Origin: Lentisphaerota bacterium | Lineage (GTDB): Bacteria > Verrucomicrobiota > Lentisphaeria > Victivallales > Victivallaceae | Length of the DNA stretch: 41,923 nt | Direction: 5' to 3' | Assembly (NCBI GenBank): GCA_015061865.1 | Contig: SUVU01000005.1 | Location: 1-41,923 of the forward strand | Shown here: positions 11,556 to 15,777 of the stretch, one piece after another | Layout: the number at the start of each line of letters is the position of its first letter | Position numbering within the stretch: position 1 is the first letter of the stretch | Made by a program: the position numbers and the translations under genes | The notes under the pieces: generated by a model | Database searches by the model: none | What the model was told of the DNA's origin: nothing | The model's input: only the letters and a program-made list of their open reading frames with translations

Positions 11556-13229
11556 ATGAATTACCGCCGGATGATACAATATGTGTTGATGGTGCTGATG
11601 GCACTGTTTTTGGGGGCGTTTCTGCTGCTGCCGGTTTTTACGGTGGTGCGGACGGGGTGTGATCTATCGCTGTTCAAAGAGCTGCTGCTTTCTCCGGTCT
11701 GCCGGGAAGGATTGCTGAACAGTCTGCTGGTTGCGGTGACGACTACGGCGATGGTGGCGGTGATTTCACTGGTGCTGGCACTGCTGTATGACCGGTTTGA
11801 GTTTGCCGGTAAAGAGTATTGCTCACTGCTGATGCTGCTGCCGATGATCTTGCCGCCGTTTGTCGGGGCGCTGGGATTTCAGCAGATACTCGGTCATTAC
11901 GGCGTGGTCAATACGATTCTGGTTTCATGCGGCATGGAACGGGTGGATTTCCTCGGCGGGCAGGGTAAATTTTTCTCGGTATGCCTGATCGAAGCATTGC
12001 ATTTGTTTCCGATATTTTACTTGAATTTGATCACGGCACTGGGCAATATCGACCCGGCGCTGGATGAAGCCGGGGCCAATCTGGGGGCTTCCCGGTGGCA
12101 GCGGTTTGTGCGGATCAGATTGCCGCTGCTGCGCAGTGGTTTCCTTGCCGGCGGCAGTATTGTGCTGGTGTGGAGTTTTACCGAATTGGGGACACCGCTG
12201 ATGTTCGGCTACAACCGGGTGATGCCGGTACAGGTTTTCAACGGCTTGAACGAGTTGGAGAGTAATCCGCTGCCCTATGCGCTGGTCGTGGTGATGCTGA
12301 CGGTATCGGCACTGCTGTATGCGCTGATGAAGTATCTGCTCCGCACGGACGGGGCGAATTCTGCGGTCAAAGGCAGTATGGGGTCGCGCGGAACGCAGTT
12401 GCACTCCTGGAAAAGATTTCTGCCGACGCTGGTGTTTCTGCTTGTGGCACTGGCATCGATCCTGCCGCATCTGGCATTGATCGGAGCGGCGTTTTCAGTG
12501 CGCTGGTATAATACGGTATTGCCGGAACACTTTACGCTGGAACACTTTGACAACGCTCTCTCCAATCCGCTGGTGCTGCCGTCGATCGTCAACAGTTTGC
12601 GTTACTCGGCTCTGGCAATGCTGATCGCGGTGGTGTTGGGTGTGCTGGCGGCATTGATGGTATCCCGCTGGAAATTGCGCGGGGCGTGGGCGCTGGATGT
12701 GTTGACGATGCTGCCGCTGGCGATCCCCGGTTTGGTGATCGCATTCGGTTATCTGGGCATGACCGGTCGCTACGCCTGGGCGCGGGCGATGTTTGATCCG
12801 GTGGCTAATCCCCTGTGGCTGCTGGCGATCGCTTATGCGGTCAGGCGGATACCGTATGTGGTGCGGGCAGTGAGTTCCGGTTTGGAGCAGACTCCGGAGG
12901 AGTTGGAAAATGCCGCCCGCAACTTCGGTGCCGGGCCGGTGCGGACATTGGTAAAAGTTACGCTGCCGCTGGTGGCGGCGAACTTGCTGGTCGGGGCGCT
13001 GTTTGCATTCAGTTTCTCCATGCTGGAAGTCTCTGATTCGCTGATTTTGGCGCAGAAAAGTATTTTCTATCCCATTACCAAAGCGCTGATGGAATTGTCG
13101 CAGATCCTCGGTTCCGGCCCGGCATCGGCGTGTGCATTCGGGGTGTGGGCGATGGTGTTTCTGGCGTTGACGCTGGCTTCAGCCGGGATATTGCTGGGGC
13201 GTAAAATCGGCGCAATATTCAAATTTTAG
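11556..13229 (+). CDS. ABC importer permease, two fused membrane domains
   Basis: A 557-residue inner-membrane permease made of two binding-protein-dependent transport domains in one chain, as in ThiP and some iron(III) permeases. Each half has about six hydrophobic helices and one EAA-type coupling loop: LDEAGANLGASRWQ in the first half, ELENAARNFGAGPVRT in the second. The join falls near residues 265-290, a charged segment with no membrane helix. The ATG directly follows the binding protein's stop (TAAATG), with AAGGAGGG upstream. With the two preceding genes it forms a complete importer. A short AT-rich gap of 29 bases separates it from rsmE. Confidence 0.9.
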   Translation: MNYRRMIQYVLMVLMALFLGAFLLLPVFTVVRTGCDLSLFKELLLSPVCREGLLNSLLVAVTTTAMVAVISLVLALLYDRFEFAGKEYCSLLMLLPMILPPFVGALGFQQILGHYGVVNTILVSCGMERVDFLGGQGKFFSVCLIEALHLFPIFYLNLITALGNIDPALDEAGANLGASRWQRFVRIRLPLLRSGFLAGGSIVLVWSFTELGTPLMFGYNRVMPVQVFNGLNELESNPLPYALVVVMLTVSALLYALMKYLLRTDGANSAVKGSMGSRGTQLHSWKRFLPTLVFLLVALASILPHLALIGAAFSVRWYNTVLPEHFTLEHFDNALSNPLVLPSIVNSLRYSALAMLIAVVLGVLAALMVSRWKLRGAWALDVLTMLPLAIPGLVIAFGYLGMTGRYAWARAMFDPVANPLWLLAIAYAVRRIPYVVRAVSSGLEQTPEELENAARNFGAGPVRTLVKVTLPLVAANLLVGALFAFSFSMLEVSDSLILAQKSIFYPITKALMELSQILGSGPASACAFGVWAMVFLALTLASAGILLGRKIGAIFKF

Positions 13230-13258
13230 CATATATATTATATAAGGTATAAAAAATC

Positions 13259-14431
13259 ATGCATCGGGTTTTCTGTGCAGAAATACCCCCGGCCGGGGAG
13301 ATCGCCGGGATCGAGAGCAGAGAAAAGGAACATCTTTTCAAAGTTTTCCGTGCCGCTTGCGGCGAGGAGGTCGAATTGCTGGACGGTCACGGCAAAATTG
13401 CCCGCGGTACGGTGGAAAGCGGCAAAGTTATCCGGATCAATTCGGTAAAAGTCTTTCCGGAACCGGAGTTGAAACTGCATTTGTGCTGTGCGTTGCCCCG
13501 GAAACAGAAATTGGATCAGATGTTGAAACAGGCTGCTGAACTGGGCGCCTGGAGCATCCGGCCGCTGCGTTGTATCCGGTCGGTGGCGGAGGGCGGCCCC
13601 AAAGAACGGTGGGATCTGCTGTTGCGTGAAGCATGCAAGCAGTCCGGAAATCCGTTTATGCCGGAATTGTTTCCGGAAGAAAAACTTCCTGCGGCATTGG
13701 AGAGATTGGAAAAGGCGCAGATCCAAAGTTATTACGGCGACGTCGTGCCGGATGGTCAGACTCCGGCAGGGATCGGCAGGGATCGGGCGCTGCTGATCGG
13801 CCCGGAAGGAGGCTTCGCTCCGGAGGAGATCGAATTGATGAAAGCCAAAGGTGCGCTGCCGTTTAATTTTGCTCCTTATATCCTGCGGCTGGAAACGGCG
13901 GCGATATGCGGACTGACTGCGTTGCGGATGCTCGGGATGCTGCTGTTGACGGCGGCGGTGATCTTTACTGCCGGCTGCGGCGAAGAGTCGATCGAAAAAA
14001 ATCCGCTGATGATCAAAGGGGCAAAGATGTTGGAAAAGGGGGATTTGGAATCTTCCCGGAGATATTTCCGGCAGGTCGTGGCAGTGCATCCGGAACGCCC
14101 CGAACCGTATCTGGCGCTGGCAAAATTGTGTGATGAATATCTGGATGATCCGCTGGAGGCGTTGTATTGTTACCGGATGTATTTGCAGTTCACCCCGGAA
14201 AGCAGTCCGGATCGGCAGAGTATTGAAAATATCGTTGCCAGATTGAAACAGCGCACCGGAGAGCAATTCGGCGGCGGCAAAAAAGATGCGGATGCTGAAA
14301 AAATCGCTTATTTGCAGGAACGGGTGCGGCTGCGGGAGCGGAAAATCGTGCAGCAGCAGCAGATAATCAACCGTTTGCATAATGAACTTATGGCAGAAAA
14401 ACAGAAACATAACAGGAGGAATAGACGATGA
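13259..14431 (+). CDS. rsmE: RsmE 16S rRNA methyltransferase joined in frame to a TPR lipoprotein
   Basis: A single 390-residue reading frame holding two proteins. Residues 1 to about 223 are RsmE, which methylates N3 of U1498 in 16S rRNA: MHRVF start, the KLDQMLKQAAELG segment, REACKQSG, the knot motif LIGPEGGFAPEE and ILRLETAA. RsmE proteins normally stop about 15-20 residues after the ILRxETA motif. Here the frame continues without a stop into MLGMLLLTAAVIFTAGC, a lipoprotein signal with lipobox at about residues 238-241, and then a TPR-like repeat (residues 250-340) and a coiled coil to the end. A cytoplasmic enzyme and a lipoprotein are not compatible in one chain unless the hydrophobic segment spans the membrane. 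An internal start (see the next entry) or a lost frameshift are alternatives. Its stop overlaps the next ATG (ATGA). Confidence 0.85.
   Translation: MHRVFCAEIPPAGEIAGIESREKEHLFKVFRAACGEEVELLDGHGKIARGTVESGKVIRINSVKVFPEPELKLHLCCALPRKQKLDQMLKQAAELGAWSIRPLRCIRSVAEGGPKERWDLLLREACKQSGNPFMPELFPEEKLPAALERLEKAQIQSYYGDVVPDGQTPAGIGRDRALLIGPEGGFAPEEIELMKAKGALPFNFAPYILRLETAAICGLTALRMLGMLLLTAAVIFTAGCGEESIEKNPLMIKGAKMLEKGDLESSRRYFRQVVAVHPERPEPYLALAKLCDEYLDDPLEALYCYRMYLQFTPESSPDRQSIENIVARLKQRTGEQFGGGKKDADAEKIAYLQERVRLRERKIVQQQQIINRLHNELMAEKQKHNRRNRR
13922..14431 (+). CDS. Possible internal in-frame start: TPR lipoprotein
   Basis: Starting at the TTG at 13922 gives MRMLGMLLLTAAVIFTAGC, which would be a proper lipoprotein signal with one arginine and an AGC lipobox. 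The ATG at 13928 lacks the arginine. The mature part has one or two TPR-like repeats (KGAKMLEKGDLESSRRYFRQ and the alanine-rich helix after it) and a charged coiled-coil tail. I see no good Shine-Dalgarno, so initiation would depend on translation through rsmE. This reading is an alternative to the fused protein and is not proven. Confidence 0.4.
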   Translation: MRMLGMLLLTAAVIFTAGCGEESIEKNPLMIKGAKMLEKGDLESSRRYFRQVVAVHPERPEPYLALAKLCDEYLDDPLEALYCYRMYLQFTPESSPDRQSIENIVARLKQRTGEQFGGGKKDADAEKIAYLQERVRLRERKIVQQQQIINRLHNELMAEKQKHNRRNRR

Positions 14432-14847
14432 AAAAAATATTGGCGGCAGTTGCCGTGCTGGTGTTGACAGCCGGATGTCAGCATACCTCAACTTTGACCT
14501 GGACTCCGGGAGAACCGGGACAGGTGACTGCCAGCGGCAAAAAAGTGAAGTGGAATCTGACCGGCGTCAATAACGGGATGTATCTGTTCAACTGTATTCC
14601 GCTGTGGTGCGGGTATCCCACCCGGCCGAACCGGCATGATTACGAATTGTTTCAGCATTTGCTGACGGTGCCGGAAATGCGCAAACTGCTGGATGATAAA
14701 CTTAAAGAATTGGGTGCAGATGCTGTGGAGGATATCAAAATCACAGAAACATCCAGCGGCGCCGCCGGATTGTGGATCGTTTGGAAAAGATCGATGCGTG
14801 CAACCGGTTATGCCGTCGAAAATAAGGGTGCCGGACAGAAAAAATAA
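14428..14847 (+). CDS. Small lipoprotein, unknown function
   Basis: A 139-residue protein beginning MKKILAAVAVLVLTAGC, a clear lipoprotein signal with lipobox TAGC (Cys17). The mature domain has a WNLTGVNNGMYLF strand, two cysteines in CIPLWCG, a helical middle (LFQHLLTVPEMRKLLDDKL) and a C-terminal KITETSSGAAGLWIVW. I do not recognise the family. The ATG overlaps the preceding stop and AGGAGGA lies 8 bases upstream, so it is coupled to the preceding gene. It probably sits in the outer or inner membrane facing the periplasm. Confidence 0.8.
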   Translation: MKKILAAVAVLVLTAGCQHTSTLTWTPGEPGQVTASGKKVKWNLTGVNNGMYLFNCIPLWCGYPTRPNRHDYELFQHLLTVPEMRKLLDDKLKELGADAVEDIKITETSSGAAGLWIVWKRSMRATGYAVENKGAGQKK

Positions 14848-14900
14848 CTGCTTTGTTTGCAGGATAATAAAAAAAACTGCATGACAGTTGCCGGATGTGC

Positions 14901-14928
14901 TTGACAAACGGCGTTGTTATGCTATATT
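14901..14928 (+). promoter_or_regulatory. Promoter of the tpiA-secG-pilus operon
   Basis: TTGACA (14901-14906), a 16-base spacer and TATATT (14923-14928). The tpiA RBS follows about 60 bases downstream. No later strong promoter or terminator is seen before 26532, so this promoter may drive tpiA, secG and all six pilus-like genes. The 50 bases before it hold no convincing terminator for the upstream lipoprotein gene. Confidence 0.7.
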
Positions 14929-15003
14929 TTCTTGTTCGCATATTGTCGTGAGTTGCGGATCGTAGAATCATTTTAAATAAATCAGATGAAGGAAACGTTG
15001 AAA

Positions 15004-15777
15004 ATGAGCCGTAAAGTCATTATCGCCGGTAACTGGAAAATGAACAAAAACGCCGCCGAAGGCGTCGCTCTGGTCGAAGATCTGAAAAAGATTTGCAGCG
15101 GTTGCTGCTGCTGCGGTGAAGCAGACGTCGTGGTCTGTCCGCCGTTCACCACCATCGCCGCCGTCGTCGAAGCCGCCAAAGGTACTGCCATCAAAGTCGG
15201 TGCGCAGAATATCCACTGGGCTGACAATGGTGCGTTCACCGGTGAGATTTCCGGTGATATGCTCAAAACCGCCGGTGTCGAATACGTCATCATCGGTCAC
15301 AGCGAACGCCGTCAGTATTTCGGCGAAACCGATGCCACGGTCAACGCCCGTTTGAAAGCTGCGCTGAAATATGACTTGATCCCGATCGTTTGCGTCGGTG
15401 AATTGCTTGATGAACGTGAAAGCGGCAAAACTGAAGCCGTGCTGACCACCCAGATCCGGGGCGGATTCGACGGCATCACCGGTGCGGAAATGGAAAAAAT
15501 CGTGGTTGCTTATGAACCGGTCTGGGCGATCGGTACCGGCAAAACCGCTACTCCGGAAATCGCCGAAGCCGCTCACGCTCACATCCGCAAAGAACTTGCT
15601 GCGATGTTCGGCAATGAAGTCGCTGAAAAAGTCCGCATCCAGTACGGCGGCAGCATGAAATCTGCCAACGCCCGTGAACTGGTCGCTCAGAAAGATATCG
15701 ACGGCGGTCTGATCGGCGGTGCGGCTCTCAAAGCAGAGGAATTCTCCGCTTTGATCCGCGAAGCTCTGGGTAAATGA
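15004..15777 (+). CDS. tpiA: Triosephosphate isomerase TpiA
   Basis: A 257-residue glycolytic enzyme that interconverts dihydroxyacetone phosphate and glyceraldehyde 3-phosphate. Catalytic residues are visible: Lys12 in GNWKMNK, His99 in IIGHSERR and Glu171 in AYEPVWAIGTG, followed by the phosphate-binding loop and YGGSMK near the C-terminus. AAGGAA at 14989-14994 supports the ATG at 15004 rather than the in-frame ATG at 14986. An oddity is a cysteine cluster between the first helix and second strand (CSGCCCC, residues 31-37), not a feature I associate with the family. It leads an operon with secG. Confidence 0.96.
   Translation: MSRKVIIAGNWKMNKNAAEGVALVEDLKKICSGCCCCGEADVVVCPPFTTIAAVVEAAKGTAIKVGAQNIHWADNGAFTGEISGDMLKTAGVEYVIIGHSERRQYFGETDATVNARLKAALKYDLIPIVCVGELLDERESGKTEAVLTTQIRGGFDGITGAEMEKIVVAYEPVWAIGTGKTATPEIAEAAHAHIRKELAAMFGNEVAEKVRIQYGGSMKSANARELVAQKDIDGGLIGGAALKAEEFSALIREALGK

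Follow-up and report, generated by a model that had tools for sequence, protein, structure and literature searches.

In the window, by which we mean the whole 41,923-nucleotide stretch of Lentisphaerota contig SUVU01000005.1 that was analysed, a gene for an RsmE-family rRNA methyltransferase runs without interruption into a gene for a TPR lipoprotein, and the same fused frame is conserved across the genus. The fusion itself is well supported. In the reading that we favour, with a probability of roughly 0.6, the gene would give rise to a single precursor whose mid-chain signal is probably lipidated and cut by Lgt and LspA. The first-pass annotation had described one frame passing from RsmE into a TPR lipoprotein, with the RsmE motifs ending at ILRLETAA and a lipobox near residue 240, and all of this was borne out: the ORF listing and translation give a single 390-residue frame at 13259-14431 on the plus strand, from ATG to TGA, in which ILRLETAA occupies residues 208-215 and the lipobox, TAGC, ends at Cys240. 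The features of the locus are as follows.

13244..13247, plus strand: AAGG, the likely ribosome-binding site of the fused gene, read from the sequence
13259..13933, plus strand: RsmE half, residues 1-225, with PUA domain and SPOUT methyltransferase, complete through the C-terminal helix
13925..13975, plus strand: mid-chain lipoprotein signal, R223-G239, which opens with an Arg from the end of RsmE and goes on with 16 residues, all uncharged and for the most part hydrophobic
13976..13978, plus strand: lipobox cysteine C240, predicted site of lipidation and of the LspA cut, invariant in 32/32 loci
14030..14131, plus strand: TPR repeat of the lipoprotein half, residues 258-291, from Pfam (weak) and AF2
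14279..14425, plus strand: long C-terminal helix, residues 341-389, in the AF2 model, a probable coiled coil
14414..14419, plus strand: AGGAGG, Shine-Dalgarno (SD) sequence of the next gene, within the 3' end of the fused gene, read from the sequence (-10.3 kcal/mol)
14428..14847, plus strand: 139-residue lipoprotein with an ordinary N-terminal signal, its start forming a 4-base ATGA overlap with the fused gene

The N-terminal half shares the full domain set, motifs and fold of RsmE, the PUA-SPOUT methyltransferase that forms m3U1498 in 16S rRNA (TIGR00046; structures 4e8b and 5o95). In the window protein, Pfam Methyltrans_RNA matched residues 68-222 (8.9e-31, 107.1 bits against a cut-off of 23.9) and the TIGR00046 subfamily model scored 98.4 bits against a cut-off of 41; Methyltrans_RNA also matched all 32 proteins of the genus at E <= 0.01. 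The PUA_4 domain was likewise found in 32/32 relatives at that threshold and scored 22.6 bits in the window protein, slightly below its cut-off of 23.9, and the AF2 model of residues 1-231 aligned with whole RsmE structures, N-terminal PUA domain included. The best solved relatives were Lpg2936 (5o95, 6.1e-21) and TTHA0657 (1v6z, 1.3e-20). None of the NCBIfam equivalog cut-offs for the 16S U1498 methyltransferase was reached, the best being NF008697 at 110.9 bits against 234; the RsmE subfamily assignment stands, with U1498 of 16S rRNA as the putative substrate. Structure alignment A2, of 40 rows in all, drew on part of the 80 loci fetched. Among the best 11 structure matches, the aligned part of the solved RsmE chains stopped near model residue 225-235, whereas in the window protein the last helix is prolonged into a lipoprotein signal, after which comes an export domain of 150 residues.

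This second half has the pattern of a Sec/SPII signal, i.e., a hydrophobic stretch, a lipobox and an invariant cysteine, in each of the 32 fused loci, but its placement is not the usual N-terminal one, as 222 RsmE residues come first. Beyond the cysteine, TPR_14 was matched weakly in the window protein (residues 258-290, E 0.0062) and in 30 of the 32 members of the genus at E <= 0.01, and the helices of the lipoprotein half in the AF2 model go on to residue 333. Ten of the 32 fused proteins, e.g., L029-L032, additionally matched LysM at the C-terminus, while the other branches, that of the window included, lacked it; this branch-specific domain suggests that the lipoprotein half may be located near the peptidoglycan.

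Conservation of the fusion was examined in 34 genomes of the genus (G000-G033), 31 of which carry the uninterrupted RsmE-lipoprotein frame, in 32 loci altogether, at 34-66% protein identity to the window. One genome (G025), with 8% contamination, contributed two fused copies, and a full copy was not found in G005, G019 and G020, which are 83, 71 and 76% complete. No stop codon was present at the join in any of the 32 loci; a TAA flagged in G030 proved to be the terminal stop of the fused gene itself. The residues that were invariant in all 32 alignment rows included, among others, Cys240, C126-K-Q-S, G181-P-E-G-G-F and R210-L-E. Over ten pairs of relatives, the pooled pN/pS was 0.20 in the RsmE half, 0.55 in the join and 0.32 in the lipoprotein half; purifying selection thus acts on each half, with the constraint loosened at the join, as it is in signal peptides.

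These results bear directly on the possibility that an assembly or base-calling artefact hides a stop codon or a change of frame at the join. The genome of the window is a fragmented draft of 165 contigs and 76% completeness, which lends the idea some initial appeal; however, the same open frame recurs in 32 loci as divergent as stated above, with purifying selection on each side of the join, and we regard an artefact as hardly credible. The missing base that the first-pass annotation had listed among its options was rejected on the same ground, i.e., the shared open frame in 31 of the 34 genomes, which excludes chance as well. The TGA that it had noticed in the +1 frame close to the join does exist, at 13947, about 14 bases past the join, and has no bearing once the relatives are compared.

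The fused gene evolves fast within a stable neighbourhood: between the window (11556-15777) and eleven relatives (L004-L014), the fused protein is 49-66% identical and the adjoining ABC permease and tpiA are 79-92% identical. In 12 loci (L015-L018, L022, L026, L029-L032, L045 and L046), a further gene of 163-192 residues, whose product has a lipoprotein-like beginning, stands immediately downstream of the fused gene and upstream of that of the 139-residue lipoprotein.

Outside the genus, the two genes are separate. The family's other genera were represented by 44 genomes. No rsmE locus that could be used was obtained from five of them (G065, G069, G070, G075 and G089), which were left unclassified, and RsmE had its own stop codon in 39/39 loci that were read; the same was true of 15/15 loci read in other families of the order. 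Four further loci, L170-L172 and L052, were left out of the analysis. In 32 of the 39 separate loci the start of the lipoprotein gene was located, the filter having assigned none in the other seven; 23 of these starts formed a 4-base stop-start overlap, and the mean anti-SD pairing was -7.25 kcal/mol, a value biased toward strength because the SD sequence was part of the start choice. The cultured Victivallis vadensis DSM 14823 (L053, NZ_QEKH01000013.1), which belongs to the same family as the window but to another genus, exemplifies this arrangement: its RsmE stop lies within GGAGGCGGGCCGATGAAATATGG, where ATGA serves as both the stop and the lipoprotein start. The downstream gene (L053 6687-7367) encodes the same lipoprotein in the same gene order, with a TPR followed by a charged helix, and LysM in some members of the family. 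The lipoprotein of the sister genera thus has its own SD sequence, start codon and N-terminal signal, whereas the version in the fused genus lacks all three. The refuting condition named in the first-pass annotation, a stop or base difference near 13930 in related genomes that cleanly divides the two genes, has a split outcome: such a stop occurs in all 39 loci read from other genera and in none of the 32 loci of the genus of the window itself.

Since the join is free of stops in the 32 loci of the genus and RsmE ends with its own stop in the 39 loci of other genera, the fusion is real and, judged by the sequences sampled, it is a derived state confined to one genus. In a phylum-wide sample of 387 genomes, 85 matched at E <= 1e-35, a threshold at which weaker, more distant fusions would be missed, and the 23 matches that spanned both halves all came from the fused genus; three other matches, in G059, G063 and G135, extended beyond residue 231, each through a stop codon. 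No match outside the genus covered both halves in the order sample either (E <= 0.001), and no relative was found among viral contigs. Two open frames, of 490 residues in G041 and 520 residues in G081, were considered as fusions and rejected, there being a stop between the genes in the sequence.

A tree of RsmE placed all 32 fused rows on the same side of one branch, with support of 84/85 and recovery in 82% of bootstrap trees, the bootstrap having yet to settle; the fusion therefore likely arose once, with moderate support. The distance from the Arg of the R-x-E motif to the lipobox cysteine suggests how. It is 28-32 codons in the fused loci, except for two at 37 and 38, and at least 33.7 codons in the separate loci (two values, of L138 and L140, were wrong, an earlier motif having been taken), where it is nearly always a non-whole number because the two frames differ. 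The ancestral state would have been an adjacent rsmE and TPR lipoprotein gene with an ATGA overlap and an SD sequence within the end of rsmE. With V. vadensis, in which the distance is 37.67 codons (113 bases), as a stand-in for the ancestor, and with 30 codons (90 bases) as the commonest fused span, we infer a net deletion of about 23 bases in the ancestor of the genus. Such a deletion would have taken the rsmE stop, the SD sequence and start codon of the lipoprotein gene, and most of the charged n-region of its signal. The C-terminal helix of RsmE would now continue directly into the hydrophobic core of the signal, and the positive n-region would be supplied by the terminal Arg or Lys of RsmE. 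The charged residue that most closely precedes the hydrophobic core is indeed Arg or Lys in 31 of the 32 loci and a His behind an Arg in the other, and it belongs to the end of RsmE itself except in L019 and L023, where it lies within a short extra basic stretch. Deletion as a route to gene fusion, by the joining of two reading frames, is described in a preprint (PMC12803068) and resembles the event proposed here. However, the fusions described there unite fragments of distant genes and have lost catalytic domains, with no clear new function so far, whereas the present fusion consists of two complete neighbouring genes that have been held under purifying selection through a genus.

An internal start at TTG 13922 or ATG 13928 was another option raised in the first-pass annotation, and both codons are in frame (at L222 and M224), as is a further candidate, ATG 13937 (M227). 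If ribosomes also started at one of these, and at other codons in other genomes, a lipoprotein with an ordinary signal would be made beside RsmE or the fusion, a reading that we consider unlikely. A start at TTG 13922 would indeed yield a well-formed lipoprotein signal of 18 residues, and an ATG, GTG or TTG occurs 14-24 codons before the cysteine in 30 of the 32 loci and within 40 codons in all; however, no start codon around the join, the two proposed ones included, is conserved across the genus, and L030 and L032 have none of the three codons at -24 to -14. Certain loci offered a fair SD score, namely -5.7 in L020-L022, at -16 or -17 codons from the cysteine, and -9.5 in L018, though at 39 codons before it; but the best candidate site per locus averaged -3.70 kcal/mol against -3.63 in a synonymous resampling null, which gives no sign of a selected SD sequence, and the candidate start codons numbered 105 against about 98 expected under that null (by hand sum). 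Single candidates at a normal signal-peptide distance averaged -2.03 kcal/mol (59 sites). In a clade of six loci an ATG, which encodes the M of MRLES, is indeed kept 31-33 codons upstream of the cysteine; its SD sequence was weak wherever that ATG was the best site, and since the separate RsmE of G035 also has Met there (IMRLET), this codon need not be a start. Nor was synonymous change reduced in the RsmE tail, being 0.58 against 0.50 in the preceding 40 codons (13 pairs).

The neighbouring start sites served as controls for this comparison, the anti-SD score throughout assuming a canonical 16S tail. At the rsmE starts of the genus, pairing averaged -4.74 kcal/mol (32 loci). The next junction on the same DNA has retained its SD sequence, with a mean of -7.40 kcal/mol that carries the same bias as that of the separate loci; a start was located there in 24 of the 32 loci, eight being without an assigned start, and ten of the 24 showed a 4-base overlap. 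SD strength differed between fused and separate loci with p = 1.6e-9, a descriptive value as the rows share ancestry. In short, these genomes use SD sequences and overlapping stop-start codons, and the fused junction has neither: the ATGA pair, which is the arrangement of the sister genera and is kept at the next junction of the fused genus, has here lost both stop and start. Without a stop codon there would be no termination for a second start to be coupled to, and a full-length chain is expected in any case. Overall, internal initiation is disfavoured by these comparisons.

Translation would thus yield one precursor chain, since the stop, the SD sequence and the start codon have all been lost at the junction. 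In the favoured reading, the mid-chain signal would then insert into the membrane, with RsmE remaining cytoplasmic and the TPR part facing outward; the invariant cysteine would be lipidated by Lgt, and LspA would cut just before it. Two products would result: a TPR protein that carries lipid, and an RsmE whose hydrophobic C-terminal tail would keep it at the membrane unless the tail is trimmed off. The genes for both enzymes are at hand, lspA in 33 and lgt in 31 of the 34 genomes of the genus, and the genome of the window has both. As a more tentative proposal, the fused gene may encode a two-protein precursor split by LspA; the cut would free the lipoprotein, and what is left of the signal would retain the methyltransferase at the membrane. 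The two would then be fixed in equal numbers, and one step of ribosome maturation could perhaps take place at the envelope.

Alternatively, the chain may stay whole in the inner membrane, which it would cross once, by a single helix between a cytoplasmic RsmE and an external TPR part, so that the methyltransferase is held at the membrane. The AF2 model, in which residues 211-239 form one unbroken helix, is compatible with this, and a second RsmE-family gene elsewhere in all 31 genomes that carry the fusion means that tethering of one copy could be tolerated. Nonetheless, the invariant cysteine is preceded by Gly in 31 loci and by Ala in one, while the hydrophobic residues ahead of it vary freely, which is what is expected of a signal that is cut, and the 13-19 uncharged residues leading up to the cysteine across the 32 loci are short for a permanent anchor; we therefore find an uncut chain quite unlikely. 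Certain points also weigh against the favoured reading. The fusion forces equal output of an enzyme and an envelope lipoprotein, and constraint at position -3 of the lipobox is loose in the window, which has T there, and in several relatives. Among the open-licence papers listed, we found neither an RsmE-lipoprotein fusion, nor LspA cutting a mid-chain signal, nor a precedent for LspA accepting a substrate with a folded cytosolic N-terminal domain, here of 225 residues.

The first-pass annotation had argued that an rRNA methyltransferase and a lipidated protein should not share one chain. Of its options, that of a genuine fusion joined through a transmembrane segment is supported, but the premise takes no account of signal peptides located mid-chain, by which the translated chain could be split. 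FbcH, the cytochrome b/c1 precursor of Bradyrhizobium, is a bacterial polyprotein that is cut at a mid-chain signal peptide; it joins two membrane partners of one complex and is processed by signal peptidase I. The window protein is like FbcH in being one chain with a mid-chain signal and expected processing by a signal peptidase, and differs in that it would join a cytosolic RNA enzyme to a lipoprotein, via a lipobox. Mid-chain lipoprotein signals showed no sign of being a general habit in 258 kb of the genome of the window (213 model ORFs): the pattern was hit three times, the fused gene included, and of the other two hits one protein was scored as having eight hydrophobic segments and the other as having none.

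The fused chain leaves the cell with two courses, to cleave it or to have the enzyme anchored at the membrane. Cleavage by LspA would mean that a lipoprotein signal can lie elsewhere than at the N-terminus, and predictors confined to the N-terminus would miss the class; an uncut chain would mean membrane tethering of an RsmE-family methyltransferase. The fused genus and its separate sister genera, cultured V. vadensis among them, together constitute a natural experiment in which a coupled gene pair has become one chain, and the comparison also bears on how joined cytosolic and exported proteins survive. Gene finders, for their part, may misread the fused frame as an ordinary rRNA methyltransferase or as an error.

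Two minor observations were made in the genome and the window. Stand-alone RsmE-family genes of 242 residues each, nearly alike, were found on two separate contigs of the genome (L002, 1492-2220, minus strand; L003, 1276-2004, plus strand) with different neighbours, judged by eye to be a transporter in one and a sugar-phosphate isomerase in the other; the pair reflects either a duplication or a mixture of strains in the draft genome. In the window, an antisense frame of 417 residues (13238-14491, minus strand) spans the whole fused gene and exceeds it in length, such that a length-based gene picker is misled by it; this frame is probably a by-product of codon usage.
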